From Pedobacter jeongneungensis (GTDB lineage: Bacteria > Bacteroidota > Bacteroidia > Sphingobacteriales > Sphingobacteriaceae), in NCBI RefSeq assembly GCF_000633455.1, contig NZ_AYMG01000004.1, forward strand, positions 62,001 to 126,000: a DNA stretch of 64,000 nt, read 5' to 3'. Shown piece by piece: positions 1-56,130 of the stretch; position 1 is the stretch's first letter, and each line of letters opens with the position of its first letter. The position numbers were made by a program, and so were the translations under genes. The notes beneath the pieces were generated by a model. That model searched no databases and was not told where the DNA came from. It saw nothing but the letters and a program-made list of their open reading frames with translations.

Positions 1-295
1 TAAGTGCTTGATTAATGTTTGTGGAAAATGTGCACAAAACCACTGCGTTTTAGGTTTGGTAGTGCCCGTTGTTCTATTTCGCAACTGTTTTTTTGATTTC
101 CCTGCACTTGGGATTGACCGGCGTCCTTCGGTAAAACCTGTTTGTTATCAAAGCAAGCTAGCATAATCCTTTAAAAAGACGTGTCTATACGATAGGGACA
201 GGATGGCAATCGCGTTAGGAAAAAGAAGCTAAACATATTAAAACTCTTAAAGATTAACCAGACTCAAGTTATGAGTTAATTATTAAAAAGAATTA
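1..295. other. 5' window edge, no gene seen
   Basis: No open frame or RNA gene that I can support. The stretch is intergenic up to the small membrane protein gene at 296; nothing repeats with the other intergenic elements of the window. Confidence 0.5.
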
Positions 296-502
296 ATGGC
301 AAAAAGAAGAACCAGAAAAACAAAACAAAGGGGTTTTAAAGAAATCTTAATCTTATTGGGGATGCTTTTTAGCTGCATCCTCTTTATCATCAAAATCATT
401 TTCGGGCGCATAGGCTGGTTAGAAGTTTTTGCGCCTGTGATCGTCGTATTTCTGATCCTTTTTCTCCTCTCGGTATTAAAAACGGCAGTGAGGAAAGTAT
501 AG
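296..502 (+). CDS. small basic membrane protein, unknown function
   Basis: A 68-residue protein with a very basic N-terminus (MAKRRTRKTKQRG, residues 1-13) followed by two hydrophobic segments at about residues 15-36 and 41-62, with a short basic tail. The likely topology is a two-helix hairpin in the inner membrane with both ends in the cytoplasm (positive-inside rule). It ends 72 bp before the convergent DUF6266 gene, and an inverted repeat lies between them. I do not recognise the family. The frame could be a chance ORF, but the hydrophobic pattern with charged ends is coherent. Confidence 0.55.
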   Translation: MAKRRTRKTKQRGFKEILILLGMLFSCILFIIKIIFGRIGWLEVFAPVIVVFLILFLLSVLKTAVRKV

Positions 503-523
503 CTCGAAAAAGCAAAAATTTAA

Positions 524-570
524 TAAACCCTGCTCCAACCGGGTATAATCGCCAGTTAGGGCAGGGTTTA
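524..570 (-). terminator. inverted repeat between convergent genes, probable terminator
   Basis: The arms TAAACCCTGC (524-533) and GCAGGGTTTA (561-570) are perfect 10-bp complements around a 27-nt loop. On the minus strand the stem follows the stop of the DUF6266 gene by 4 nt and is followed by an AT-rich, T-containing stretch. The loop is long and the U-tract imperfect, so efficiency is uncertain; it may serve both convergent genes. Confidence 0.5.
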
Positions 571-574
571 ATGG

Positions 575-1219
575 TTAAGCCTGGGGTACGGTAAAACTGC
601 CCAGGTATTGACTGTTAGACACCACATTGTTTTCGCGCTTAATGGCAAAGGCCCAGGCATAAAGCACATCGCCTGCAGCGGTATTACCTACAATTGCCGT
701 GTAGGTTAAAGCTGCCCGTTGCGCATCTTCGTACACGAGGTACATTTTTTTGGTATCGTTAAATAATACCACCATCAGCATATCATCGTCGAAAGCATTG
801 TAACGGTTCGAAATGCCCTGCCAGCTGAGCACAATATCAGTCCCCTGTAAAACAGCACTTAAACCATGGAATACGGAGAGTGAACCTTTACTGATTACGA
901 TCTGCGAAAAATCGATTGTAAAATCAGGGTAATCGCCAACAATGGCATTGTTTAAAAAAATCTTTACCGCAGCGTTGTAACCCGTGGTTTTATTGAGCTG
1001 TTTATCTTTGAAACCAATATTTAAAATGTCTTTAATTGGGCTGAGGTAAATTGGGGCGAGGGCAAATTTGCGCCGTTGTGCCAGCTGAAGGTCGGAACTT
1101 TGTTTATTGCTTTTTTTCGGCAGACTTTTAAGGTAATCTACCCCACGCCAGTTGCTCCCAACAATACTGCCTACTTTACCTGAGAATGCGCCATTGGCGC
1201 CTTTTGAATACGTTGCCAT
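575..1219 (-). CDS. DUF6266 family protein
   Basis: A 214-residue protein whose N-terminus (MATYSKGANGAFSGKVGSIV, then a GSNWRGVDYLKSLPKK motif at about residues 22-37) is the signature of DUF6266, a family abundant and multi-copy in Sphingobacteriaceae and other Bacteroidota; its function is unknown. The second half looks like a beta-rich fold ending in LGSFTVPQA. No signal peptide or membrane segment is visible. It stands alone on the minus strand, with a weak terminator-like repeat after it and the 11-bp repeat array upstream. Family assignment is from recalled sequence pattern, not a search. Confidence 0.8.
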   Translation of the reverse strand: MATYSKGANGAFSGKVGSIVGSNWRGVDYLKSLPKKSNKQSSDLQLAQRRKFALAPIYLSPIKDILNIGFKDKQLNKTTGYNAAVKIFLNNAIVGDYPDFTIDFSQIVISKGSLSVFHGLSAVLQGTDIVLSWQGISNRYNAFDDDMLMVVLFNDTKKMYLVYEDAQRAALTYTAIVGNTAAGDVLYAWAFAIKRENNVVSNSQYLGSFTVPQA

Positions 1220-1462
1220 GATCAGTTTTTTTAAGTGAAAAGATGTTTAATTAAGGACCCTCCCCTTTTATCAGGAATTTTAAATCCATACCCAAACTTA
1301 GCTACAGGCTTTCATGATGTATTATTTTAGACTTTAATGGGCCAAATTGAACCCCTTATGGGTAGGCTTGAGCCAAAATGAACCTTTAAAAACTCAAGCT
1401 ATAGACAACATACTCCCATGGTAGCATACAGCTGGTGTAGCACCTAACCCTATCGCAGGCAT

Positions 1463-1511
1463 AAAAAGGCCCCGGTATTACTTTTTTGGTAAACAACAGG
1501 TAATGCCGGGG
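1463..1511 (-). terminator. intrinsic terminator of the HTH gene
   Basis: Arms CCCCGGTATTAC (1470-1481) and GTAATGCCGGGG (1500-1511) pair over 12 bp with one G-U wobble around an 18-nt loop. Read on the minus strand the stem is followed by CC and five T (complement of 1463-1467). It lies 114 nt past the stop of the HTH gene, so that gene's 3' untranslated region would contain the phased repeat array. The 1500-1511 arm falls inside repeat unit 2, which explains why that unit departs from the consensus. Confidence 0.7.
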
Positions 1512-1630
1512 TAAACAAAAGGTAAAAAACAGGTAAGCAAAGGGTAGAGAACAGGTACAGAAATGGTAAACATGGGCTTAACCTGGTACCTGCAAAACGT
1601 AAAAAACAGGTACAGGATCAGTACCTAAAT
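1488..1630. repeat. helically phased 11-bp direct-repeat array
   Basis: The core GGTA recurs at exactly 11-bp steps: 1488, 1499, 1510, 1521, 1532, 1543, 1554 and 1565 (eight consecutive units, consensus GGTAAACAACA). After two degenerate steps (1576, 1587) the phase resumes with CGTAAAAAACA at 1598, GGTA at 1609 and AGTA at 1620, reaching the end of the HTH gene. The period is close to one DNA turn and not a codon multiple. It may be an iteron-like operator for the adjacent DNA-binding protein, or a 3'-UTR element; the function is inference. Confidence 0.8.
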
Positions 1631-1903
1631 GCGTCCTTTTCTTTGGCTTTCTAAATAAGCGGCCAACAGGTCTTTCAGGTAAAAACGGTCGCCGCCCGGT
1701 AATTTTATGGGTTTTAAAGTGCCATCTTTTACCTTACGTTTGTAAGTACTTTCGCTTATTTTAAGGTAATCTTTTACCTGCTGGCGCGTGAGCTGCTCGT
1801 TGGGGCTGCCAAATAGATCGATAAACGTAAAAGGCCGGTTTTCTTTATTGAGTACGAGATAAATATTGTACAAAATCTGTACAAGCGCTTCATAATCTTT
1901 CAT
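1625..1903 (-). CDS. helix-turn-helix (excisionase/MerR-like) DNA-binding protein
   Basis: A 92-residue protein counted from MKDYEALVQ (start codon complement at 1901-1903). The open frame extends ten codons upstream (MFSCFLNTIH), but that part lacks the family character. The C-terminal half has the HTH_17 / excisionase pattern: QLTRQQVKDYLKISESTYKR as the helix-turn-helix, then IKLPGGDRFYLKDLLAAYL as the wing and last helix. Proteins of this type are small DNA-binding regulators, often of mobile or accessory DNA. Its stop codon sits inside the last unit of the 11-bp repeat array, which makes the array a candidate binding site. No integrase is seen nearby. Confidence 0.75.
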   Translation of the reverse strand: MKDYEALVQILYNIYLVLNKENRPFTFIDLFGSPNEQLTRQQVKDYLKISESTYKRKVKDGTLKPIKLPGGDRFYLKDLLAAYLESQRKGRI

Positions 1904-2480
1904 GTGTATAGTGTTTAAAAAACATGAAAACATTCTGCTAAACTTTTAGGGACATTCAGGTTCTAAAAATGTTTCAGTCGTTCCTGTGCTGAAGGTTAAG
2001 CCAATCGTTTTGAAATCGCTAAAATCTCATCAAAATGGTTATTTACAATTCGATTTGAGCAGGTAAACAAAAATCAACTGGTATTTAATCCTCAGCTAAT
2101 TCAGGTTAATTATCATTTTGTGTGTGGTGTGTGTAAATTGCGGTTGTGCATGGGCTTATGGATAGCCCCGACTCAGCCCAATCAGGCCAATACAAGATCT
2201 AATGCACAACACCTTCTGCGGGAGCTGGCAGTGTGCATCAACGAGGAGAGCATGCACAAATTGGGATGATTTAACTGTTAGGGATGGGATAAAAACTTGA
2301 TTTCGTTTTTCCATCAATGTAAGTTTAATTAGTAATTAAACAGCAAAATAAGCGACGCTGTATATCTTGTATAACGAAAGGAAGTTTTGGAAAGTATGTT
2401 AAGCTAAAGGTTACAAAAGATTTATTTTTTCAACAACAGGATCGGCTCGTTTTTTAATGGTGATATATTCATTTATAGCG
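1904..2480. other. intergenic region without a supported gene
   Basis: About 580 bp without a convincing frame. It contains a 9-bp inverted repeat GTTGTGCAT (2143-2151) / ATGCACAAC (2202-2210) separated by 50 nt, next to a short GT-rich run (2120-2133). These could be remnants of a mobile element or an operator; nothing more can be said. Confidence 0.4.
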
Positions 2481-2510
2481 GTTTAACAAATCAGTTTTTG
2501 TTAAACGGCC
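2481..2510 (+). terminator. hairpin overlapping the end of the small YegP gene
   Basis: Perfect 10-bp stem GTTTAACAAA (2481-2490) / TTTGTTAAAC (2497-2506) with a 6-nt loop. On the plus strand it is followed by GGCC and then TTTTT (2511-2515), so it could stop plus-strand transcription; on the minus strand it overlaps the stop codon of the YegP-family gene and has no U-tract. Confidence 0.4.
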
Positions 2511-2677
2511 TTTTTCTTAAGAGATATCTTCAATGAGGCATTGGGGGCATTACGTTTAATGGCATCAATGCCATTTTCCCTGTTTGCGGCGGTAGTATAG
2601 TTCTCGCTTCGACCGATGATTTCGCCATTGGCCGCTTTTAGATTAAAGGTATAATTGCCAACGGCATCTTTACACAT
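2501..2677 (-). CDS. small single-repeat YegP/DUF1508 family protein
   Basis: A 58-residue frame, start complement at 2675-2677 and stop at 2501-2503. The residues NYTFNLKAANGEIIGRSENY (8-27) followed by NRENGIDAIKRNAPNA (32-47) match one complete DUF1508 (YegP, UPF0339) unit: the beta strands with F-x-L-K-A-x-N-G-E, then the helix ending in GI-x-A/S-I/V-K-x-N-A/S-P. The two-repeat protein at 14052-14384 in this window carries nearly the same words (FNLKAANGEIIGTSQMY, DNGIESVKENSPNA), so the two are paralogues. Known members usually begin with the strand F-x-I/V; here that first strand is shortened, so the gene may be a trimmed remnant. Function of the family is unknown. Confidence 0.7.
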   Translation of the reverse strand: MCKDAVGNYTFNLKAANGEIIGRSENYTTAANRENGIDAIKRNAPNASLKISLKKKAV

Positions 2678-2935
2678 TATAAGAATTTATTAATTGAGAT
2701 AACTAATAATATAATCATTTGGCTCATAATTAAATATACTAGATAATTGTCGAAATTTTATCCATTTGGTATAAAGTTAAAGGTATATGACGCTCACATC
2801 TGACTACCTCAGAGAGAATTAGGATAAAATATTTATGTAGATCAAAAAATATTTTTGAATTACTCAAATTTTTATCATTTTCGTGATGTTCTTCAATCAA
2901 GATATTTATTTATCCCTACTTTAATTACTCTCAAA

Positions 2936-3472
2936 ATGATATTTAATTGGCCATGGTCAAAAACTAGAAAACATCGATGCCTCGATGGTTCCGTCAAGCT
3001 TATTTTTAACAATATTGATGATGCATTTCCATTAGCTTTAAAGGATACTAATATCAAAATTGAAGCCGAGGGAGCTGTGCAAGAAGCTGCCACCGCGAAT
3101 TTAAAAGCAGAGCATCAATCAAAAATCCAGAGTTTGTTATTTAGTATTACAGACCAAAATCAAAGCTTGATGATGACATTCCGATCCGCTTACATTGGAT
3201 ATACTACAGATCCATGTGGAGATGGAGGTTTTTTTACCCGTCAAATCGAGTCAATTACACAAAGGCAGTACAGATTGATGGAGCTTAGAACTCAGATTAC
3301 TGGTTTAATTTCTCTAGCTGAAATGTTCCCAGACAACTCACAACAGATCACAAATACTTATTTTGAAATCATGAACCAGCTAGGCGGTAAGGGAATTGCA
3401 GAAATGGCTAAGGTTGAAATTAAAGAAAATCGTGAGAATGCTCAGGAATGGATAGGAGGTCAAAATGGCTAA
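2936..3472 (+). CDS. unknown protein, partner of the ParA-like ATPase
   Basis: A 178-residue protein from ATG 2936 (MIFNWPWSKTRKHRCLDG). The frame continues upstream to a TTG at 2855, but the ATG start is more natural. It is acidic to neutral and mostly helical in character, with an Ala/Glu-rich stretch at about residues 40-65 and no clear membrane segment or signal peptide. Its last 8 nt overlap the start of the ParA-like gene, which means co-translation and probably a shared function. I do not recognise a family. By analogy with ParA-family operons it could be an adaptor or cargo factor, but this is only inference from position. The local sequence is visibly AT-richer than the housekeeping part of the window. 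Confidence 0.65.
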   Translation: MIFNWPWSKTRKHRCLDGSVKLIFNNIDDAFPLALKDTNIKIEAEGAVQEAATANLKAEHQSKIQSLLFSITDQNQSLMMTFRSAYIGYTTDPCGDGGFFTRQIESITQRQYRLMELRTQITGLISLAEMFPDNSQQITNTYFEIMNQLGGKGIAEMAKVEIKENRENAQEWIGGQNG

Positions 3473-4685
3473 AATAATCTGCATGGCAAGTGCAAAAGGT
3501 GGTTCTGGTAAAACTGTCTTAACTTCTACCTTTGCGTCTTTTCTTTGTGCTTTGGGTAAGAAAGTTCTTATGGTTGATACAGATGCCTCAACGAACGGCT
3601 TGACTTTGATGTATCTGAAAGAGGTCATGGTCCAAGCAGAGCTGGCCCGTTCGGAGAAAAGGGAACCTAAAGGGAGTTTTGAAATTAGCATTCTCAAAAA
3701 CTATGCTGAAATTGTTTCTCTTGAGAGTGGAATTGATTTAATTCCGTCAACATTTTCTTTTCAAAATACTGAAGAATGCGAAATCGCTAAATTTCGAGAA
3801 GGTTTAAAACAAATTCTTCGTGACCATTCTGGAAATTATGACTTTATCTTTCTTGACGCTCAGGCTGGTTCTGATAGTTTTGCAGGATTCTGTATGAAAC
3901 GAGGCGTTTCAGATCAGGTCATAATTGTAAGCGAATATGATCCATTGTCAGCAGCGGGTATAGAAAGGTTAAAAGGTATTTTTCGCGATGATCTAACTTA
4001 TGATAGAACCTGGGTCTTGTTGAATAAAATGCTTCCAGACTTTGTTCAGTCATTCAGCGATTTTTTAGAAGTAGCAAAATATCTTTCCCCAATTCCATGG
4101 GATGCGGAAGTCGTGAAATCTTATGCACGACGTAGATTAGCTTTGAATCTCGAGTCTGGAAATGAATTCACTCTGGCAATAATTCAAACTTTACGTTCGT
4201 TTATTGGAATAGAAATAGAAGACGAAGTAAATAACTGGTTAAATAGTCGATCTGCACTGTTGCGTGAACCTATCGAAATACAATATGACGATGCTAATCG
4301 TGAAATGAAGCTTCTTTTTAAGATTATTAAGTCAGAAGAAAGGAAACAGATCCGTAAAAGATGGTTAACACTTTCTATGTTCTTGTCCGCGGCCTTTTCA
4401 TTGTTTTTTGTTATTTGGAATGTTACAGATGATGGAATGACTAGAAGTTTTTTCAAGCAAAAGATAAATAATGAACAATTATTACTGGTGCTTCTTGGGA
4501 TTGTGACAGTATTTATTCCTTTTATTTTGAGGGATTTTATTATTCCAAAAACTTCTATAGAGGATGAAAATACTAAGGATAGATTGCGTAGGTTACAGGA
4601 TCGTCTGGAAAAACTTGACAGCCTAAGGCGGGCGAATGTTGACGTGCTTATTAAATATAATATAAAAAATTCAATTATAAACTAA
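3465..4685 (+). CDS. ParA/MinD-type ATPase with C-terminal membrane anchor
   Basis: A 406-residue SIMIBI-class ATPase. Residues 11-17 are the deviant Walker A KGGSGKT, followed by the VDTDAST switch region and a Walker B-like DFIFLDAQAGSDS. The C-terminal part is unusual for ParA: two hydrophobic segments (about residues 300-322, beginning WLTLSMFLSAAFSLFF, and 337-360, LLLVLLGIVTVFIPFIL) and then a charged coiled-coil tail (RLRRLQDRLEKLDSL). ParA/MinD proteins are dimerising ATPases that position cargo on nucleoid or membrane; this one should be permanently anchored in the inner membrane. It overlaps the upstream gene by 8 nt, no parB or centromere-like site is visible, and two strong terminators follow. 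So plasmid or chromosome partition is unlikely, and an accessory or defence role is possible. Confidence 0.8.
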   Translation: MAKIICMASAKGGSGKTVLTSTFASFLCALGKKVLMVDTDASTNGLTLMYLKEVMVQAELARSEKREPKGSFEISILKNYAEIVSLESGIDLIPSTFSFQNTEECEIAKFREGLKQILRDHSGNYDFIFLDAQAGSDSFAGFCMKRGVSDQVIIVSEYDPLSAAGIERLKGIFRDDLTYDRTWVLLNKMLPDFVQSFSDFLEVAKYLSPIPWDAEVVKSYARRRLALNLESGNEFTLAIIQTLRSFIGIEIEDEVNNWLNSRSALLREPIEIQYDDANREMKLLFKIIKSEERKQIRKRWLTLSMFLSAAFSLFFVIWNVTDDGMTRSFFKQKINNEQLLLVLLGIVTVFIPFILRDFIIPKTSIEDENTKDRLRRLQDRLEKLDSLRRANVDVLIKYNIKNSIIN

Positions 4686-4732
4686 GCGAATTACTTAGAG
4701 TGGTAAAGTCTTGACGTTTTAATAATAATTTT

Positions 4733-4759
4733 AATCACGCTAGACGAGTGATTTTTTTA
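4733..4759 (+). terminator. terminator 1 after the ParA-like gene
   Basis: Stem AATCAC (4733-4738) / GTGATT (4748-4753) with a 9-nt loop followed by a run of T to 4758. It lies 48 nt past the stop codon. Confidence 0.6.
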
Positions 4760-4778
4760 TCGTCGTAACCACTCCTTC

Positions 4779-4817
4779 CGCCAGTAGTTACGTATAACTG
4801 CTGGCGTTTTTGTTTTT
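4779..4817 (+). terminator. strong terminator 2 after the ParA-like gene
   Basis: Stem CGCCAGTAGTTA (4779-4790) / TAACTGCTGGCG (4795-4806), 12 bp with one wobble pair, tetraloop CGTA, then TTTTTGTTTTT. It is a textbook intrinsic terminator, and together with terminator 1 it isolates the two-gene unit from the convergent gene. Confidence 0.85.
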
Positions 4818-4957
4818 AAGGCGGCGAGAAATAGGGAGAGAATATTACATGGAATCGATTGAATATGACTCATTTTAAATTTTGTATAAACCTATCATTC
4901 TCTTAGAATGAAATCTAGCTATAAGATGAATGTCTTCAAGAATAATTGCTCATATTC

Positions 4958-7600
4958 TTATTGAAGTTTTAATCCTAGAAGTCCCAAAAGATAAGTGTAT
5001 AATATTTCCCCTTGCAATTCTGTCTGTTGATTCAGCATAGATTGAAAAGAATCATGGTCGTAATTTAAAAAATAATCTTTCCCGTTTGCAACGGATGGCT
5101 TATTATGTTTATTAAAAGGACCTATTTCGACAGATAACCTATAGATCTCTTCAATCTTTTTAATGCATTTCACCAATGATTCTGGAAACTGCTTTTTGTC
5201 CATCTTCATATCGACTAAAAAACTAGAATCAACAGCAGATAGGTCTTTTACCAATACACCATGTATCTCCCCAATTAACCTAAGCACCTGATCCAATGAA
5301 CCTTGCGGAGCAGCGTGCCGCAGTTGCACACTTATTGTTTGATTTCTAACGACTATAAAGCCTTTATTTTCCAAGTATTGCTTTAAGATAATTTGATAAT
5401 CATTAAGCCCCACTTGATTTGTAGTAAAAATGGTGTCCAACTTCAGTAATTTCATTGTTGAAATAGCGGATGCCAAACTCATTTGAATACTCTGATAAAC
5501 AACCATCGTATTTTTTGCACACAAATCCAAGAGTTCATTTTTCGAATAAAAATCAGCATAGGTTGCATACATTTGCTGTTTATCCTGTTCGTAAAATTGT
5601 AAATAGTGCTGAAGGTAGCTGACAACAACTTGCTTGATATTACTACCCTCACTTTCCAAAGCCTGACGAAAAAATTTTCTGAGCAATATAGAGATTTCTT
5701 TTTGACACGCAGAAGCTTTCTCTGAAGGCATGACGTTACTCCTTGAAACGTCAAAATCAATTCCGCCTGGCTTAAAATTAATTTCTCCACCAATGATATA
5801 TGGGAATTTATAAGGAATAATTGGCAATGGTAAATCTGTAATAATAAAACCACTATTTGATGCTATCAGATTAATGGCATGAGGAGATAGGCCCAACTTT
5901 AATTCATAACGGTCATTTGTCTGAACCTCTGTATATAAACATGATTCAATATTCCAACTCTCGTGTTTTTGTACTCTAGAACCATTTTGGTAACATTCCA
6001 AATTCGCAATATGGCGACAATAATGCATCGCTTGACTAAATGCAACTTGAGGTATATATCCCTGTTTGAGATAGATTCTCACAATTGTGCCAGTTGTCTG
6101 AAGACGATTTTCCAAATTCGACTGAGAATATTCAAATCCTTTAAAGACATTTTTTATCTTAAACGTAACTTGTTCATCCATTTCGTGTTTGGTTGAAATT
6201 TGGATTTTATCAGCAACGATAAATGTGCTAATGAATCCAATACCAAACTTAGATATTAAACTGAAATTTCCTGTATTATCATTAAACTCTTGACTAATAC
6301 TCTTTCCGATTACCGAAAAGTGATTTTTAAGAACTTCTTTAGACATCCCATCTCCCTCGTCAAGCACTTCGATATAATTTTCAGTCGTATTCAGACTAAT
6401 AATAATTTTAGGGGATAAGTGCGTATGAACTTGCTTTACACGATTGCACGCGTCTACTGAATTTTGGATTAGCTCTCTGATAAAAATATAAGGATTTGGA
6501 TAAAGGGATTTGCCAATAAGAAGTTTGACAATACGATCCACATCTGCAGTATAGCTGTCCGGTAAATTTTTATCATCATTATTTGATTGCTCTGCGAGTT
6601 CGTAATATCGATTTTTTATAGGAAGCTTTCCTGAATGGCAACCATTGGGAAGAGAATCAGTATCTTTGTCAAAACGATATCCATTGAGGATAAACTTTCT
6701 AGCTTGAATTTCATAAGTTTGGTGATCAACATCTACGTCAAGTACGATGTACCCAGGCTGAAAAACACTTGAAATTTCCTTTGAATTATTGAAAGCAGAA
6801 CGTCCGTTGATTGTGAGAAATCCTCCATTAGCTGAATGCACAGATTCTGCACGGTACTTGTGACTGTGCCCGAAAAAAGCAACATGAAAATCTTGGGCTT
6901 TAAGTATTGCTTCAATTTCTTCTGCCTCCGCACTATTTATTGCTTCTAGTGGGTGATGAAAAAGTGCAATATTTAGTTTCGTATGCTGAGCTGCAAACCG
7001 TTTTTTTGCGTTGAACAGTTGGTTTATTCCAATAAAATGCTGTTCTTTTTTTAGATCCACAGAACACCTCCAAGAATCATTGATCATTACTAATCCAACT
7101 TTGTTTTCTCCATCACTAAGTATCGCTACAGATTCATTATTTGAGTAAAAATAATCAGGAGTAGATAAATGAAATTTTTTTTCAAAATTTTTAAATAATT
7201 TAATACGCTCATTGTAAGTATTGAATTCATCTTTCATATCATTTAGATAGGTATTAGCCATATCCTTATCGAGTTTTTCAGCTAAATAATATTCCGAATG
7301 TTTCTCTACCTTTTGTCGCTCAATGTCATGATTTCCTGGTATCATTAATATTTGCGAATTGGAAATACCTAGCCCTAATGCCAAACGAGAAATCACTTCT
7401 TGCTCAAAGATTTGATAGGGGTCAGTTCCTAAAGAATCTCCTCCTTTGTCAACCAAATCTCCGGTAAAAATAATAACATCGATCGGCTTTTTAAGGTGCT
7501 CAGCCTTCAAATCAGATAAAAGAGCTTCCATAAAATAATTTTGAAGGTTAGTCAAATTACTGTTGGATAAGTGTATATCAGAAAGTTGGATAATCTTCAT
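4958..7600 (-). CDS. calcineurin-like phosphoesterase fused to HSP90-type ATPase
   Basis: An 880-residue protein from MKIIQLSDIHLS; a nine-codon upstream extension is possible but less likely. The N-terminal third has all metallophosphoesterase motifs: D8-x-H10, G47-D48, G89-N-H-D92, the ALFHHPLE histidines, and G244-H-S-H247. Residues about 365-600 form a GHKL ATPase domain of HSP90/HtpG type: N-box RELIQNSVDA with Asn380, DEGDGM (414-419), and an FGIGFISTFIVADK lid motif (about 452-465). The C-terminal 280 residues have no recognisable domain. The ATP- and metal-binding residues look intact, so both activities are plausible: an ATP-driven conformational switch controlling a phosphodiesterase (nuclease or nucleotide hydrolase). 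It is monocistronic, convergent with the ParA-like pair, and AT-rich. No signal peptide, so cytoplasmic. A defence effector is my inference. Confidence 0.85.
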   Translation of the reverse strand: MKIIQLSDIHLSNSNLTNLQNYFMEALLSDLKAEHLKKPIDVIIFTGDLVDKGGDSLGTDPYQIFEQEVISRLALGLGISNSQILMIPGNHDIERQKVEKHSEYYLAEKLDKDMANTYLNDMKDEFNTYNERIKLFKNFEKKFHLSTPDYFYSNNESVAILSDGENKVGLVMINDSWRCSVDLKKEQHFIGINQLFNAKKRFAAQHTKLNIALFHHPLEAINSAEAEEIEAILKAQDFHVAFFGHSHKYRAESVHSANGGFLTINGRSAFNNSKEISSVFQPGYIVLDVDVDHQTYEIQARKFILNGYRFDKDTDSLPNGCHSGKLPIKNRYYELAEQSNNDDKNLPDSYTADVDRIVKLLIGKSLYPNPYIFIRELIQNSVDACNRVKQVHTHLSPKIIISLNTTENYIEVLDEGDGMSKEVLKNHFSVIGKSISQEFNDNTGNFSLISKFGIGFISTFIVADKIQISTKHEMDEQVTFKIKNVFKGFEYSQSNLENRLQTTGTIVRIYLKQGYIPQVAFSQAMHYCRHIANLECYQNGSRVQKHESWNIESCLYTEVQTNDRYELKLGLSPHAINLIASNSGFIITDLPLPIIPYKFPYIIGGEINFKPGGIDFDVSRSNVMPSEKASACQKEISILLRKFFRQALESEGSNIKQVVVSYLQHYLQFYEQDKQQMYATYADFYSKNELLDLCAKNTMVVYQSIQMSLASAISTMKLLKLDTIFTTNQVGLNDYQIILKQYLENKGFIVVRNQTISVQLRHAAPQGSLDQVLRLIGEIHGVLVKDLSAVDSSFLVDMKMDKKQFPESLVKCIKKIEEIYRLSVEIGPFNKHNKPSVANGKDYFLNYDHDSFQSMLNQQTELQGEILYTYLLGLLGLKLQ

Positions 7601-7933
7601 ATTTAGTTTAATAATTAGTATCCTCAAATGTAAACAATACTATATAGTATAAAAAGGTAAGCTACAGTTTAATTCGATCTCGGACCCCTGAGTTTTAAAT
7701 GAATATATGTATGTATTTACATTCTTCCCATAAGTCAGATTAAATATTTCAACTTGTATAAATTTAATTTCAATGGAAAATCTCAATAAGTTGGTAAGGG
7801 TGGTTCAATAGTCGAATTAGACAGCTACACTATAAAAGCTTAAGGGAATATCTAATCCATAGATAGCCTCGACCTAAATATTAATTGATCTGAGGTTAGA
7901 AAGGGCTATAGCTACTTCGAGTTTTCCAAAATC
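7601..7933. other. intergenic region, nothing recognised
   Basis: About 330 AT-rich bases between two minus-strand genes. I see no frame, hairpin with U-tract or repeat shared with the other intergenic elements. It should contain the promoter of the phosphoesterase-HSP90 gene. Confidence 0.4.
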
Positions 7934-8461
7934 TTAATTATTTAACAACTGCTTCCGCGGTTTCCGCCACTCCCATGGCGCTACCGCATCTGCTTCCTCC
8001 CATAATCCTATTTTATTTTTCCTGGCGGTCATTTCCAGTTGCGCATAAAGCGGATCGCTGGAGTACTTTTTAAAATGCCAGGCCATACCCAGTTTAACCA
8101 TTTCCTGATTAAGCACCTGTTTTTTATCGTTAATCACTACAGCAATCAATCTTTTATAGCGGTCGTATTTTTGGCCCTGCACAGTAACCATTTGTCCGAA
8201 ACAGAGATCGGAAAGGGCTTGTTTCGCTTTGGTACCAAAAGGCTGGTGGCCACGTTTCTCGGGGCAATCGATATGTGCCAAACGGATTTTAACGGGCTGG
8301 TCCTGATACAATACTTCCATGGTATCTCCATCTAAAATGCGGATGACCCTTGCCGTAAAAACAAGATTACTATAATTAATGCCTTTATTTCCAGCTGGCC
8401 GGATGAAGCAGGACTGAAGCGTGAGCAACAACAGCAGCAGGCTTACTTTTCCCAGCCGCAT
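7934..8461 (-). CDS. thermonuclease (SNase) family lipoprotein
   Basis: A 175-residue staphylococcal-nuclease homologue that hydrolyses DNA and RNA with calcium. The N-terminus is a lipoprotein signal with lipobox LQSC (Cys18), so it acts on the outer side of the membrane. The catalytic set of SNase can be followed: ILDGDT with D44/D46, RLAHIDCPE with R60, D65 and E68, and DRYKRLIA with R104, corresponding to D19/D21, R35, D40, E43 and R87 of the Staphylococcus enzyme. The length is normal for the family. Its start overlaps the end of the small cysteine-rich gene by 19 nt, so the two are probably co-transcribed. A role in nutrient scavenging or degradation of extracellular DNA is likely. Confidence 0.9.
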   Translation of the reverse strand: MRLGKVSLLLLLLTLQSCFIRPAGNKGINYSNLVFTARVIRILDGDTMEVLYQDQPVKIRLAHIDCPEKRGHQPFGTKAKQALSDLCFGQMVTVQGQKYDRYKRLIAVVINDKKQVLNQEMVKLGMAWHFKKYSSDPLYAQLEMTARKNKIGLWEEADAVAPWEWRKPRKQLLNN

Positions 8462-8655
8462 AATGTTTTGCCGTCTTTTTTGGCTTTTTCGATATCCACT
8501 TTTACAATTTTATAAGTACAGTTACTTAAGCCTTTGCAACTGGAGCTGTTATGGTATCTTTTTGCATTCGGACTGTTGCAGATGTATACGGTTGTACTTT
8601 CTTTGCAGGTAATAATGTTAGCAAAGAAGAAGATGAGTAGCGAGAGTGTTTTCAT
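8443..8655 (-). CDS. small exported cysteine-rich protein beside the nuclease
   Basis: A 70-residue protein with a hydrophobic signal-like N-terminus (MKTLSLLIFFFANIITC; the cysteine at 17 may be lipidated). The mature part has the pattern VYICNSPNAKRYH, then CKGLSNC and a terminal LCGWEK: a His and four Cys that could bind metal or form disulfides. Similar short domains (YH-x4-C-x-GL-x2-C ... C-x-W) are, as I recall, often placed beside or fused to secreted thermonucleases, and here the gene overlaps the nuclease gene. The function is unknown; an accessory factor for the nuclease is an inference. Confidence 0.7.
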   Translation of the reverse strand: MKTLSLLIFFFANIITCKESTTVYICNSPNAKRYHNSSSCKGLSNCTYKIVKVDIEKAKKDGKTLCGWEK

Positions 8656-8710
8656 GATGAGGGGATGATTTTAAATGAGTTATGCTATTTTAACTTTAGT
8701 GGTGGATTGG

Positions 8711-9571
8711 TTATGATTTATTACCTCCTGAAATAATTTCTTGTAGTACAGGTGCTAAATTGGCAGGCAGATCAGCCGTTTTTAAATAGTATTTTTTCAC
8801 TTTCATGGCTTTGAACCAATCTGTCCAATACTGTTTAATTATATCTTCTTCGTATGGGCTTTGCTTTGACGGATTAATGCCTAATACAATAACCTCGAGG
8901 TTTTGCAAATTGCCGGTTGCAGGGATAAAACCAAGATTGTTCTTTTTTATGATCGCCCTATAATCAGCGGAGGTGAGCTTTTTTGCCTGGATAAATGCCG
9001 GTGTGATGTAAGAACTTTTTCCATTATCTAAAAACTTACTGTCTTGATGGTACATGTAGCCATCGGTTAGGATAATCAAAATATTTCTATGCTGATCTTT
9101 AATGCAATAATCCTGAACATTGTTTTTGAAAAATTTCCAGATATCGGAGCCTACATAATGACCATATTTAATAGTATGCTGATAGATTTTTGCAGAGATC
9201 TGTGTGTACGAGTTATCCACACTTAAGATGTCTTTTTTACTTGTTTTTGGATTAAAACTGACTTTTAACTGTTGACTCAGCAGATTGATATTCGGAATTT
9301 TAGGTATTGGATCGAAGAAAACCTGCATCTGATCGTTCAAAAGCATCATCTTTTTCCCTTTTACATGGTTTACAAAAGCTGTTTCTATCGATTTTATGTA
9401 GCCTAAGTCTCTTTGATAAAGATCAGGATTCTTTTTAGGATCTATTCTGTCTGATAAATCGAGTAAAAAGCTGATGTTAAGGTTCTGTTGCGCTGGCTGG
9501 GCTTTACCCTCTCTCGCAAAAGCAGCTGTAATTAAGAGCGGCAGTAATATGTTTAGTAATGTTGACTTCAT
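8711..9571 (-). CDS. exported VWA-like protein, unknown role
   Basis: A 286-residue protein with a cleavable signal peptide (residues 1 to about 24, ending GKAQ). The mature part begins LNISFLLDLSDRIDPKKNPD, where DLSDR resembles the D-x-S-x-S metal site of von Willebrand A domains; later NILIILTDGYMYH gives a second VWA-like strand ending in TDG. The MIDAS is imperfect, so metal binding is uncertain. It is 12 bp downstream of the coiled-coil membrane protein gene on the same strand, which suggests an operon. A periplasmic sensor or binding partner for that membrane protein is possible. Family not recognised by name. Confidence 0.65.
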   Translation of the reverse strand: MKSTLLNILLPLLITAAFAREGKAQPAQQNLNISFLLDLSDRIDPKKNPDLYQRDLGYIKSIETAFVNHVKGKKMMLLNDQMQVFFDPIPKIPNINLLSQQLKVSFNPKTSKKDILSVDNSYTQISAKIYQHTIKYGHYVGSDIWKFFKNNVQDYCIKDQHRNILIILTDGYMYHQDSKFLDNGKSSYITPAFIQAKKLTSADYRAIIKKNNLGFIPATGNLQNLEVIVLGINPSKQSPYEEDIIKQYWTDWFKAMKVKKYYLKTADLPANLAPVLQEIISGGNKS

Positions 9572-9583
9572 GATGCCTGATGG

Positions 9584-10912
9584 TTATAAAGTAGTGACAT
9601 AAACAGAATTTTGCGAATCTTCGCTGGCGCCTACACTTTTAAGGTTTTCGTGATAAGTTTCCATACATTCAGTTTGAAGAACAATTTTTTCGTGTTGGGA
9701 AATGCGGAGTTTTTCATTAACGAATGTAATCCAGCCCTGCATGTACTCAGAAGCATATAATACATATTCTTTAGTAGGGATAATTACGGCATCGATGATG
9801 TTCTGAAGGGTAGCAATGCGCCCCTGAGCTTCGAGCGAACTTTTCTTGATGCCGCTAAGTTCTTCTATTAATTTTGCTTTTTGAATTTCAATATCGCTTA
9901 TCCTATCCTGATGGATCTGGATGTCTTTTTTCCTCCGAAACTGTTCGTGTTTTATTTTATCTTTCTCGCGGTGTTCCTTCATGATAAAATCGAATACCAC
10001 ACCCCAGATGAGGTACACCACAAAACCGGCAAAGATGATTCCCCAGAACTGGATTTTGCCAAAGGCAATAGGGATATTAAATTCAGGTGTATTAAACGTT
10101 TTGGTTAGCTCGTAAATCTTTTCTTCGATCTGGTAAGCCAAAATGGCATCGAAAACAAAAGTGGTAAGTAACAACAGACCGATTTTAATGTAATTCCCAA
10201 TGCTTTTAACCTCTCCGAACATGTGTATTAAATAACCCAGTCCTAAAAACACAAAAGGGATAAAGGTTACAAAAGCACCTTCGAGCGAACCATCGTGCCA
10301 GGCCTTTTCAAAAGCTTTCGAATCGAGCACATTCATGATGATGGTGCTGGTGGCATCGAAGGGTTTAAAAAAGGCAGAATAAGAGGTAGAAATATAAAAG
10401 GTAAATAAATACAGGCTTAAAGGCATGAGGATGATTAAACCGATCCAGAATTTGCTTGAAGCACCTTTTGAAGCACTGATGTGGTATTTTTCGGGATTCC
10501 GGGGCAGGTCGTTAATTTCGAATTTCAACTCTTCAATATTATCCTTTACCTCCCTGATATCGGTTTCTACCTTGTTAATCTGCTGTTCCTTACTTTCTTT
10601 ACTGATGACCAGTGTTTTTATTTCGGTTTCTTTAGTTTTCTGCTCGTTGATATAGGGCTCTTTGGCCAGTTGCTGCTTTTCTACCAATTCCTTTTCTTCA
10701 TTTTGGAACCTGGCGTAAATGGCGTTCAAACATATCGAAAGTGCCAGCGGACTACCACTGTTTCTCGATCCATCTCTGAAACCCGCTTCGTGGTAAGTTC
10801 TTTTTCTTACCTCCTCTGTTTCTTCGGAAGCCGGCTCCTTAATCTCTACATTTTCATCCTGAGGCGGATCGGCTGTTTTTGGGTTAAAAAATTCTTCTAT
10901 TTGGGCAATCAT
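9584..10912 (-). CDS. coiled-coil protein with four membrane segments
   Basis: A 442-residue protein. It starts with an acidic, Pro/Glu-rich stretch (residues 1-40), then a long charged coiled coil (about 70-140, rich in KETEIKTL / KEQQINKVETDIREVKDNIEEL heptads), four hydrophobic segments (about 155-175, 210-232, 240-258 and 285-310), a second coiled coil (320-370) and a soluble C-terminus. I do not recognise a family. The architecture fits an inner-membrane scaffold with large cytoplasmic helices. The gene immediately precedes the exported VWA-like protein on the minus strand, and a DUF6804 and a DUF6232 gene lie just upstream on the same strand (32-bp gap), so all four may form one transcription unit. 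Confidence 0.7.
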   Translation of the reverse strand: MIAQIEEFFNPKTADPPQDENVEIKEPASEETEEVRKRTYHEAGFRDGSRNSGSPLALSICLNAIYARFQNEEKELVEKQQLAKEPYINEQKTKETEIKTLVISKESKEQQINKVETDIREVKDNIEELKFEINDLPRNPEKYHISASKGASSKFWIGLIILMPLSLYLFTFYISTSYSAFFKPFDATSTIIMNVLDSKAFEKAWHDGSLEGAFVTFIPFVFLGLGYLIHMFGEVKSIGNYIKIGLLLLTTFVFDAILAYQIEEKIYELTKTFNTPEFNIPIAFGKIQFWGIIFAGFVVYLIWGVVFDFIMKEHREKDKIKHEQFRRKKDIQIHQDRISDIEIQKAKLIEELSGIKKSSLEAQGRIATLQNIIDAVIIPTKEYVLYASEYMQGWITFVNEKLRISQHEKIVLQTECMETYHENLKSVGASEDSQNSVYVTTL

Positions 10913-14536: not shown

Positions 14537-15708
14537 AGGATGACAAGCGCTTTTTTTAACCACAGAGAACCATGGAGAAGGGCACGGAGAGCACAGCGCT
14601 TGTTAAATGGCTAAGATTCACTTTCCATCTCAAAAGATCCTTCGATTATGCTACCATTGGCAAAATCCATTAGCACGTCCGTCATTCCCGCGCAGGCGGG
14701 AATCTTAATGCAACCTACAAACCCTACCAAGGCATTACGATTCCCAATCGAGTTGGGAATGACGATCTCTCGCAACCTACCATTCGCAAAAAAAAATGTC
14801 ATTTATATTGATTTTTATAAAATAAATTATCCCTCAGGATGACAAGCGCTTTTTTTAACCACAGAGAACCATGGAGAAGGGTACGGAGAGCACAGCGCAT
14901 GTTAAATGGCTAAGATTCACTTTCCATCTCAAAAGATCCTTCAAATATGCTACCATTGGCAAAATCCATTAGCACGGCCGTCATTCCCGCGCAGGCGGGA
15001 ATCTTAAAGCGCTTGCATTACGATTCCCAATCGAGTTGGGAATGACGATCTCTCGCAACCTACCATTCGCAAAAAAAAATGTCATTTATATTGATTTTTA
15101 TAAAATAAATTATCCCTCAGGATGACAAGCCCTTTTTTTTAACCACAGAGAACCATGGAGAAGGCACGGAGAGCACAGCACTTGTTAAATGGCTAAGATT
15201 CACTTTCCATCTCAAAAGATCCTTCGATTATGCTACCATTGGCAGACTTCAATAGCGCGGTCGTCATTCTTCGCGCATGCGGGAATCTTAATGCAACCTA
15301 CAAACCCTACCAAGGCATTACGATTCCCAATCGAGTTGGGAATGACGATCTCTCGCAACCTACCATTCGCAAAAAAAATGTCATTTATATTGATTTTTAT
15401 AAAATAAATTATCCCTCAGGATGACAAGCCCTTTTTTTTAACCACAGAGAACCATGGAGAAGGACACGGAGAGCACAGCGCTTGTTAATTGGCTAAGATT
15501 CACTTTCCATCTCAAAAGATCCTTCAACTATGCTACCATTGACAGAATCCATTAGCACGCCCGTCATCCGATAGCTATCGTTGTAAGATTGCTTCGTCGG
15601 CTGAAAAAGCCTTCTCGCAATGACGAATTTGGCGGCTTATCATTGCGCTAGGATTTGTCTGTCATCAATATCGATTTTTATGCAATAAATTATCCCTCAG
15701 GATGACAA
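14537..15708. repeat. four tandem copies of a ~295-bp composite repeat
   Basis: Copies begin with AGGATGACAAG at 14537, 14836, 15119 and 15418, and the closing junction is at 15709: periods 299, 283, 299 and 291. Each copy has the same order: poly-T, the ACCACAGAGAACCATGGAGA module, GGCTAAGATTCACTTTCC, a MITE-like palindrome, ATGTCATTTATATTG, and ATTATCCCTCAGGATGAC. The palindromes CGTCATTCCCGCGC...GGGAATGACG are at 14680-14764, 14979-15047 and 15262-15347. Copy 2 lacks 16 bp inside the palindrome, and copy 4 has a different palindrome (15562-15625, GTAAGATTGCTTCG type). No gene is supported here. Confidence 0.9.
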
Positions 15709-20802: not shown

Positions 20803-21350
20803 AACCAACTAGCCTGGTGTTCTCTGTGGTCTCTGTGGTAAAAAAAAGCAAGGAGTCCGAAAGTCCGAAGACCGGGGTCCGAAGTTAATAGCGCAAAAAT
20901 AGCCACCAGCTTTGTGTTCTCCGTGCTTTTTCTCTGTGGTCTCTGTGGTAAAAAAATGCAAAGAGTCCGAAAGTCGGAAGACCGGGGTCCGAAGTTAATA
21001 GCGCAAAAATAGCCACCTGCTTTGTGTTCTCTGTGGTCTCTGTGGAAAAAAAAGCAAGGAGTCCGAAAGTCAGAAGACCGGGGGTCCGAAGTTAATAGCG
21101 CAAAAATAGCCACCAGCTTTGTGTTCTCCGTGCTTTTTCTCTGTGGTCTCTGTGGTAAAAAAATGCAAAGAGCCGAAAATCGGAAGACCGGGGTCCGAAG
21201 TTAATAGCGCAAAAATAGCCACCAGCTTTGTGTTCTCTGTGCTTTTTCTCTGTGGTCTCTGTGGTAAAAAAATGCAAGGAGTCCGAAAGTCAGAAGACCG
21301 GGGTTAGAAGTTAATGGCGCAAAAATAGCCACCAGCTTTGTGTTCTCCGC
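20803..21350. repeat. five tandem copies of a ~107-bp repeat
   Basis: The landmark GAAGTTAATAGCGCAAAAAT begins at 20881, 20991, 21088, 21197 and 21307 (the last with one change): periods 110, 97, 109 and 110. Each unit combines AGTCCGAAAGTC-GAAGACCGGGG with the TGTGTTCTCCGTGC / CTCTGTGGTCTCTGTGG module, the reverse complement of the CCACAGAG module seen elsewhere. The 97-bp unit has lost 13 bp. Several open frames cross it in both directions, but none has protein-like composition. Confidence 0.9.
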
Positions 21351-55956: not shown

Positions 55957-56130
55957 CATTAGGGGTGCCTTGTTTAAATAAACACAAAAACAGGCTGAGA
56001 TCATACCCATTTTGAGGTAAAAGGTAGAAGGTAAAAAGGTAGAGGGTAAACCCCATCAGCCTTAAAACCCTCCAGCCATCAACCTCGAATGCACCTGATC
56101 CGGGTAATGCCGGCGTAGGGATTGGAGTTA
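55957..56130 (+). promoter_or_regulatory. TPP riboswitch with a long internal insert
   Basis: AGGGGTGCC (55961), GGCTGAGATCATACCC (about 56000) and then, after about 78 extra bases, CACCTGATCCGGGTAATGCC and GGCGTAGGGATTGG (56092-56125). The order is that of the TPP aptamer, but the P3 region is replaced or lengthened by the insert, which contains the words GGTAAAAGGTAGAAGGTAAA and CCATCAGCC. It lies 63 nt before a TonB-receptor gene that starts at TTG. TPP should lower expression of the receptor. Confidence 0.9.

Follow-up and report, generated by a model that had tools for sequence, protein, structure and literature searches.

What does it mean for a bacterial genome to carry the same four-letter word eight times in succession, at exact 11-bp steps, directly behind a small HTH gene? 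Here, we focus on such an array in a stretch of Pedobacter jeongneungensis DNA of 64,000 nucleotides (the window), on the genes that flank it and on its counterparts in related genomes, and ask what might read it.

Array A and its neighbouring genes

The array, here called array A, lies between the HTH gene and a DUF6266 gene, and a second and weaker array (array B) lies upstream of the latter. The features of the locus are:

575–1219, minus strand: DUF6266 gene, 214 aa (Pfam PF19781, E 2.3e-36)
1293–1300, minus strand: TAAGTTTG, a match to the promoter box TAnnTTTG ahead of the DUF6266 gene
1341–1386, minus strand: array B, weak in the window, NTCA/CCCA words spaced 10, 21 and 10 bp, upstream of DUF6266
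1463–1511, minus strand: terminator-like hairpin at the end of array A (stem 1470–1511, U-run from 1463–1467, an A-run on the plus strand)
1488–1575: strict block of array A, 8 × 11 bp, core GGTA on the plus strand and TACC on the minus strand (from sequence and repeat analysis)
1585–1623: degenerate block of array A beside the HTH stop, with GGTACC at 1585–1590 off phase, and CGTA at 1598, GGTA at 1609 and AGTA at 1620 in phase
1607–1627, minus strand: another terminator-like hairpin, placed right at the stop codon of the HTH gene
1625–1933, minus strand: small HTH_17 gene, an ORF of 102 aa; by alignment, relatives start at the methionine at 1903, giving 92 aa (Pfam HTH_17, E 4.9e-8)

The eight GGTA cores of the strict block begin at 1488, 1499, 1510, 1521, 1532, 1543, 1554 and 1565, and an earlier note on this DNA, which first pointed them out, is confirmed at every position. 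This is the longest run of any tetramer at periods of 5–39 bp in the 64-kb window, where the runner-up has five copies. Comparison with shuffled sequence, which the same note had proposed as a check, establishes that the 11-bp excess is real: across 1488–1630 the 11-bp autocorrelation is 0.515, whereas dinucleotide shuffles give 0.301 ± 0.039; none of 5000 shuffles attains the observed value at 11 bp, and none of 1000 attains it at any period from 5 to 39. From 1565 to 1598 the distance is 33 bp, or 3 × 11, and phase is thereby retained in the degenerate block, although an additional GGTA at 1585 is out of phase; the phase noted at 1598, 1609 and 1620 thus stands, but the word itself is GGTA only at 1609. 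In relatives, the counterpart of the degenerate block has TACC spacings of 11, 11, 13 and 20 bp. On the minus strand, array A consists of TACC words in the 3′ region of the HTH gene, right behind the stop codon at 1625–1627, as had been described. Three GGTA words at 11 bp are found at only one further site in the same genome, at 240659 on contig 6. Intrinsic curvature from phased A-tracts was considered and set aside, since it would suit the A-rich spacers of the window but not GC-rich arrays such as that of genome G069.

Other repeats in the window are of different kinds: a 299-bp tandem repeat at 14537–15567 (3.5 copies, 90% matches), a 110/207-bp tandem repeat at 20817–21349 (about five copies, with TCTCTGTGG words) and a short AGGTAAAAAGGTAGA repeat at 56015–56050, whose period is 15 bp and not 11.

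The HTH protein passes the Pfam HTH_17 cut-off (33.5 bits against 27) and matches a PHROGs excisionase at E 1.8e-5, while its scores against NCBIfam TIGR01764 (17 bits) and the NCBIfam BldC subfamily model (16.1 bits) lie below the respective cut-offs of 28.8 and 77. A predicted model of the 92-residue form (mean pLDDT 72.7) comprises an N-terminal helix and a wHTH. The top Foldseek rows for this model are BldC–DNA complexes (6ama, E 0.010; 6amk, 0.015), followed by RacA, Xis 4j2n and RdfS 8dgl at E 0.04–0.10, with nothing at or below 0.001; in VIA-align, ordinary MerR proteins lead (CadR, Z 8.0), ahead of the GIsul2 excisionase (7.0), Xis (6.8) and BldC (6.1). By sequence, the best PDB match is a glutathione synthetase (E 0.014), judged to be chance, with BldC at 0.21–0.22 and Xis at 0.27. 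The predicted fold is MerR/Xis-like and resembles that of BldC, without a clear winner. No integrase or attachment site was found among the seven ORFs scanned (window 296–7627).

Two further genes in this part of the window encode a ParA/MinD-like ATPase with C-terminal membrane-like stretches (3465–4685) and, beside it, a protein of 889 aa with a calcineurin-like phosphoesterase and an Hsp90-type ATPase domain (4958–7627); the pair could serve in defence or signalling.

DUF6266 is widespread in the genus, with PF19781 in at least 46 of the 60 members searched and as many as at least 29 copies per genome among the matches listed. An AlphaFold model built from 14 sequences has a mean pLDDT of only 56.2, no solved relative was found by sequence at E ≤ 1, and no paper on DUF6266 was found in the open-access literature searched. 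TAnnTTTG is the Bacteroidetes −7 promoter box, which makes 1293–1300 a candidate DUF6266 promoter. The 10-bp signal of array B reaches only 0.41 in the window; many relatives have a clear 10-bp array.

The position of array A behind the HTH stop codon also admits a reading at the level of RNA, a possibility raised in the earlier note. The array might serve the HTH transcript as a 3′-UTR element, a terminator or an antiterminator. A-form RNA likewise has 11 bp per turn, and the expected hairpin is present on the HTH strand at the end of the array, as claimed; its stem at 1470–1511 is predicted at −16.7 kcal/mol (z −2.63, with 6 of 200 shuffles equally good), and relatives have a TACC-TAAAA-GGTA hairpin at this position. 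The strict array itself, however, is mostly unpaired, and 1488–1630 as a whole has a z of −1.76. Rfam 15 gives no matches in window positions 1–10000, and among 15 related loci only tRNA scores above the gathering threshold, with one group-II-intron model and animal microRNA models below it. A role in RNA consequently finds little support at the window locus, and we consider it improbable overall.

The module in relatives: constant period, changing word

The arrangement seen in the window is a recurrent one. An HTH_17 gene followed by the 11-bp array A, the 10-bp array B and a DUF6266 gene is found in Pedobacter, Olivibacter and Sphingobacterium. Homologues of the HTH protein occur in 15 of 59 genomes, the window's own included, and all are from its genus. 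Their 30 loci divide according to what lies downstream. Wherever a DUF6266 gene or remnant follows, a strong 11-bp signal (0.52–0.68) is present behind the HTH stop (15/15); among loci lacking DUF6266 downstream, four have an 11-bp array (degraded or contig-end copies) and ten have none, out of 14 after exclusion of one that is too short, L025 (Fisher 5e-5). One of the array-less homologues, L013, is 80% identical and lies on a contig that ends less than 190 bases downstream. Because of this difference between 15/15 and 4/14, the array is to be linked to the HTH–DUF6266 module rather than to the HTH family as such. The expectation that close HTH homologues would be followed by an array therefore holds for those with DUF6266 downstream and fails for 10 of the 14 others. 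In a second set of 14 DUF6266 loci, the 11-bp signal is at least 0.52 at 13, and an HTH match lies upstream at 11, that of L220 being a remnant. The set includes loci of Olivibacter jilunii (TACC) and of a Sphingobacterium MAG (TTCGG); L224, from Pedobacter sp. Leaf41, has neither 11-bp array nor HTH. The earlier reading missed the downstream DUF6266 gene and the second, 10-bp array, together with the switching of cores and the dispersed HTH-less copies described below.

Seen from the side of DUF6266, the period is constant while the repeated word changes. Forty DUF6266 loci were hand-picked from the matches listed, and 39 were retained after exclusion of L160, whose upstream region is shorter than 400 bp. 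An 11-bp period is significant (p ≤ 0.01) in 17 of the 39 upstream regions, a 10-bp period in 10 and either in 21, although the loci include kin copies (for example L157, L161 and L162) and the counts are thus not independent. Of 62 control regions, taken from upstream of other genes, just 1 shows either of these periods (Fisher 4e-10 against 21/39). Periods of 7, 8, 9 and 16 bp occur in one or two of the DUF6266 regions each, and periods of 12–15 bp in none. The words repeated upstream of DUF6266 are TACC, TTCGG, GTCGG, CCGAACAAG-like and GTCGGACTT-like words, TTCGGATATTA and, at 10 bp, GGACAATACC. The 10-bp arrays, found no farther than about 260 bp from the start of DUF6266, are unfit for A-form RNA and speak against a general role in RNA; in B-DNA, both 10 and 11 bp are compatible with one turn.

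In three species (L157, L161 and L162), a DUF6266 gene with a GTCGG-type 11-bp array adjoins, by eye, a leucine tRNA-like sequence.

The spacing within arrays is similarly regular. Across 31 TACC arrays the most frequent gap is 11 bp (137 gaps), and each of the 20 gaps of 13 bp is followed by one of 20 or 31 bp, giving a total of 33 or 44. Some single 12- and 10-bp gaps remain uncompensated, and since copies share ancestry these spacing breaks are not independent events. An exception to strict 11-bp spacing is a TACC tandem spaced by 12 bp (G113:C26:5418-5493).

Could the arrays be minisatellites, produced by slippage that amplifies an 11-bp unit devoid of function? Growth by unit duplication is apparent in some arrays, such as the alternating units of L222. 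Slippage, however, would not be expected to give independent cores the same 10- or 11-bp period with no enrichment of others, nor to leave four TACC words at 11 bp in 37 of 99 genus genomes as against 7 of 98 at 12 bp. A reversed-TACC control at 11 bp is found in 13 of 99 genomes, more than expected were TACC alone relevant, which is in keeping with arrays of other words; three TTCGG words at 11 bp are found in 22 of 98 genomes, against 3 for the reversed control. Substitutions point the same way. In six pairs of related arrays, differences are found at 3 of 180 core sites and at 44 of 349 spacer sites; once the pair L096/L101, which aligns poorly, is set aside, the five remaining pairs give 0 of 152 and 21 of 285. 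This suggests that cores are conserved more than spacers, in a comparison for which cores were defined as TACC, some pairs were picked for TACC, and two pairs (L071/L072 and L092/L094) are not orthologous array-only sites. The pair L098/L099 has no HTH or DUF6266 gene in its vicinity; here, 6 of 92 array sites have changed, compared with 173 of 608 sites in the flanks. We therefore hold a minisatellite origin to be a poor candidate.

Dispersed and palindromic copies

Arrays also occur on their own. In many species, array-only copies are dispersed between unrelated genes, and numerous copies consist of two inverted arms about a short centre, in genomes that include G069, G102, G026, G110, G097, G093 and G106; examples of such palindromic loci are L194, L198, L213, L183, L253 and L264. 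Words can be combined, as at L213, where a second word (GTTGCC) is stacked outside TACC, and at L177, which has both TACC and TTCGG. Only 1 of 37 dispersed loci overlaps an ORF of at least 150 aa, where such ORFs span a fraction of 0.60 of the loci sequence (L213 excluded). Inspection by eye, followed by confirmation with Pfam, places a DUF6266 gene or fragment beside 5 of 46 dispersed loci (L179, L195, L211, L251 and L262).

By eye, the fold-back TACC array at L205 lies upstream of a ribosomal protein S12-like gene.

If transcribed as the long hairpins that an RNA reading would make of them, the fold-back stretches would be very stable, with predicted energies of −31.8 to −103 kcal/mol, but the orientation of dispersed copies relative to the genes around them varies.

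The main rival explanation draws on these copies. It regards the arrays as belonging to a non-autonomous mobile element of the fold-back or MITE-like kind, with arms built from 11-bp recombinase or transposase sites, and takes the HTH–DUF6266 locus to carry or host one asymmetric copy. The placement of array-only copies between unrelated genes, with almost no overlap of longer ORFs, would be accounted for, as would the forward and inverted arms, the frequency of 5′-truncated HTH ends and decayed DUF6266 genes among copies, and the IS3-like end motifs that adjoin several arrays. Yet no transposase family was found to accompany the arrays, and neither a target duplication nor an empty site was defined. 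Arrays are moreover kept at orthologous sites with cores changing less than spacers, which is unexpected for dead relics, and the switching of cores at a fixed period would be unusual within one transposon family. On balance, we consider a mobile element possible but rather unlikely. Eukaryotic fold-back transposons also have inverted arms of short tandem repeats, a resemblance to be taken as analogy only.

More specific versions of this idea were rejected. For an origin from REP/RAYT, Y1_Tnp shows no consistent association with fold-back arrays: it has no match in five genomes with TACC fold-backs (G069, G026, G102, G110 and G097) and is present in three with TTCGG ones (G106, G033 and G078). 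Target-primed retrotransposition, prompted by the 5′-truncated HTH copies, was dropped. The common 5′ motif CCAGTATAGGACA was rejected as an element end, as it joins IS3 gene fragments too, and is taken to be IS-end-like.

Another sequence, TGTAAACTTATTCCAGTATAGGACA, lies loosely in tandem right upstream of several arrays and IS3-like fragments (L088, L092, L097, L135, L118–L123 and L222), and seems to be an IS-end-like sequence that favours array neighbourhoods.

A proposed one-turn protein track and its known counterparts

We propose, with a probability of roughly 45%, that the array serves as a DNA track of many sites, one to each helical turn, on which a small HTH_17 wHTH protein of the Xis/RdfS/BldC kind would assemble head to tail. 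This reading is preferred because it alone predicts a fixed one-turn period combined with a free word, room for a spacing of 10 bp as well as 11, and a variable number of sites. At the window locus, the neighbouring HTH protein would be the likeliest reader, and DUF6266 its natural target. HTH protomers would settle on array A, 3′ of the sequence that encodes them, and assembly would grow from there in the direction of array B and the DUF6266 promoter, thereby setting DUF6266 expression; array-only copies might be read in trans by similar proteins. The array, its period, its recurrence with altered cores, the module and the predicted fold are what we observe, and from these we infer binding, filament growth and the direction of regulation. 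A weak need for consensus, as in BldC, would let cores change at constant period.

Three results count against the local HTH protein as the reader. First, the window HTH has no match at E ≤ 0.001 in nine of the genomes in which TACC arrays occur. Second, the recognition helix of the HTH protein of L016/L138 is almost that of the window, yet its array is of the TTCGG type, and array-less homologues have the same helix too. Third, an HTH_17 (8) or LytTR (4) ORF lies near only 12 of the 40 DUF6266 loci, with 47 upstream ORFs scanned from 34 of the 40 and the matches at L128, L130 and L136 below the Pfam cut-off; a significant 10- or 11-bp period is found at 7 of the 12 DUF6266 loci with a nearby regulator and at 14 of the 27 others, and a nearby regulator is therefore no predictor of an array. 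Indirect, sequence-independent readout, or readers encoded elsewhere, could explain these contrary results.

Of the comparisons offered in the earlier note, that with cooperative operators keeps its one-turn phasing and gains analogues in RDF/Xis and BldC, but the dispersed HTH-less copies weaken the notion of an operator for this particular HTH protein. That with iterons is not upheld: iterons of the plasmid type need an adjacent replication initiator, and the neighbours here are HTH_17 and DUF6266 genes. A broader claim, which we offer as speculative and probably too strong, is that the Sphingobacteriaceae hold an undescribed class of helically phased elements, with units of 10–11 bp, asymmetric at HTH–DUF6266 loci and palindromic when dispersed, in which the period is selected, the word drifts, and each lineage has a small wHTH protein of its own that forms filaments and reads its code. 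If the track exists, the genus supplies numerous natural arrays of fixed helical period and varied recognised word. The extent to which a head-to-tail wHTH filament reads phase and not sequence, which has yet to be settled for BldC, Xis and RdfS, would then be directly measurable, and DUF6266 would gain a first lead to its function.

The closest known systems are the operators of wHTH RDFs (phage 186 Apl, lambda Xis and RdfS), which share the 10–11-bp direct repeats and have a small wHTH reader of the kind proposed here. Apl and other RDFs are described as binding direct repeats 10–11 bp apart, cooperatively and with spreading, with five to seven sites for Apl (PMC7498355); unlike these operators, the arrays here are longer, switch cores, lie upstream of DUF6266, and are also dispersed and palindromic. 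BldC of Streptomyces is likewise an HTH_17/MerR-like wHTH protein without a coiled coil and occupies the top Foldseek rows. Its head-to-tail binding on direct repeats of varying number is set out in PMC5859096, and its filaments, in which each protomer takes up one turn of DNA and a consensus matters little, in PMC11963761; the BldC repeats are, however, 9-bp AT-rich sites with no dispersed arrays, and the HTH protein here falls far short of the BldC model (16.1 bits against 77). LytTR regulators are counted among direct-repeat binders in the BldC paper (PMC5859096), and LytTR genes lie near 4 of the 40 DUF6266 genes, whereas the candidate regulator in the window is HTH_17. REP/BIME sequences, as portrayed in PMC3733652, are similarly dispersed intergenic palindromes, but the arms here consist of phased 11-bp units, about 100 bp in total, and the link to Y1_Tnp is inconsistent. 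No earlier description of such phased elements was found in the open-access literature searched, in agreement with the earlier note, which knew of none. Phased operators of the RDF and BldC kind are already known; what is new, relative to that literature, is a set of dispersed fold-back arrays that spans the genus, switches cores and is tied to DUF6266.
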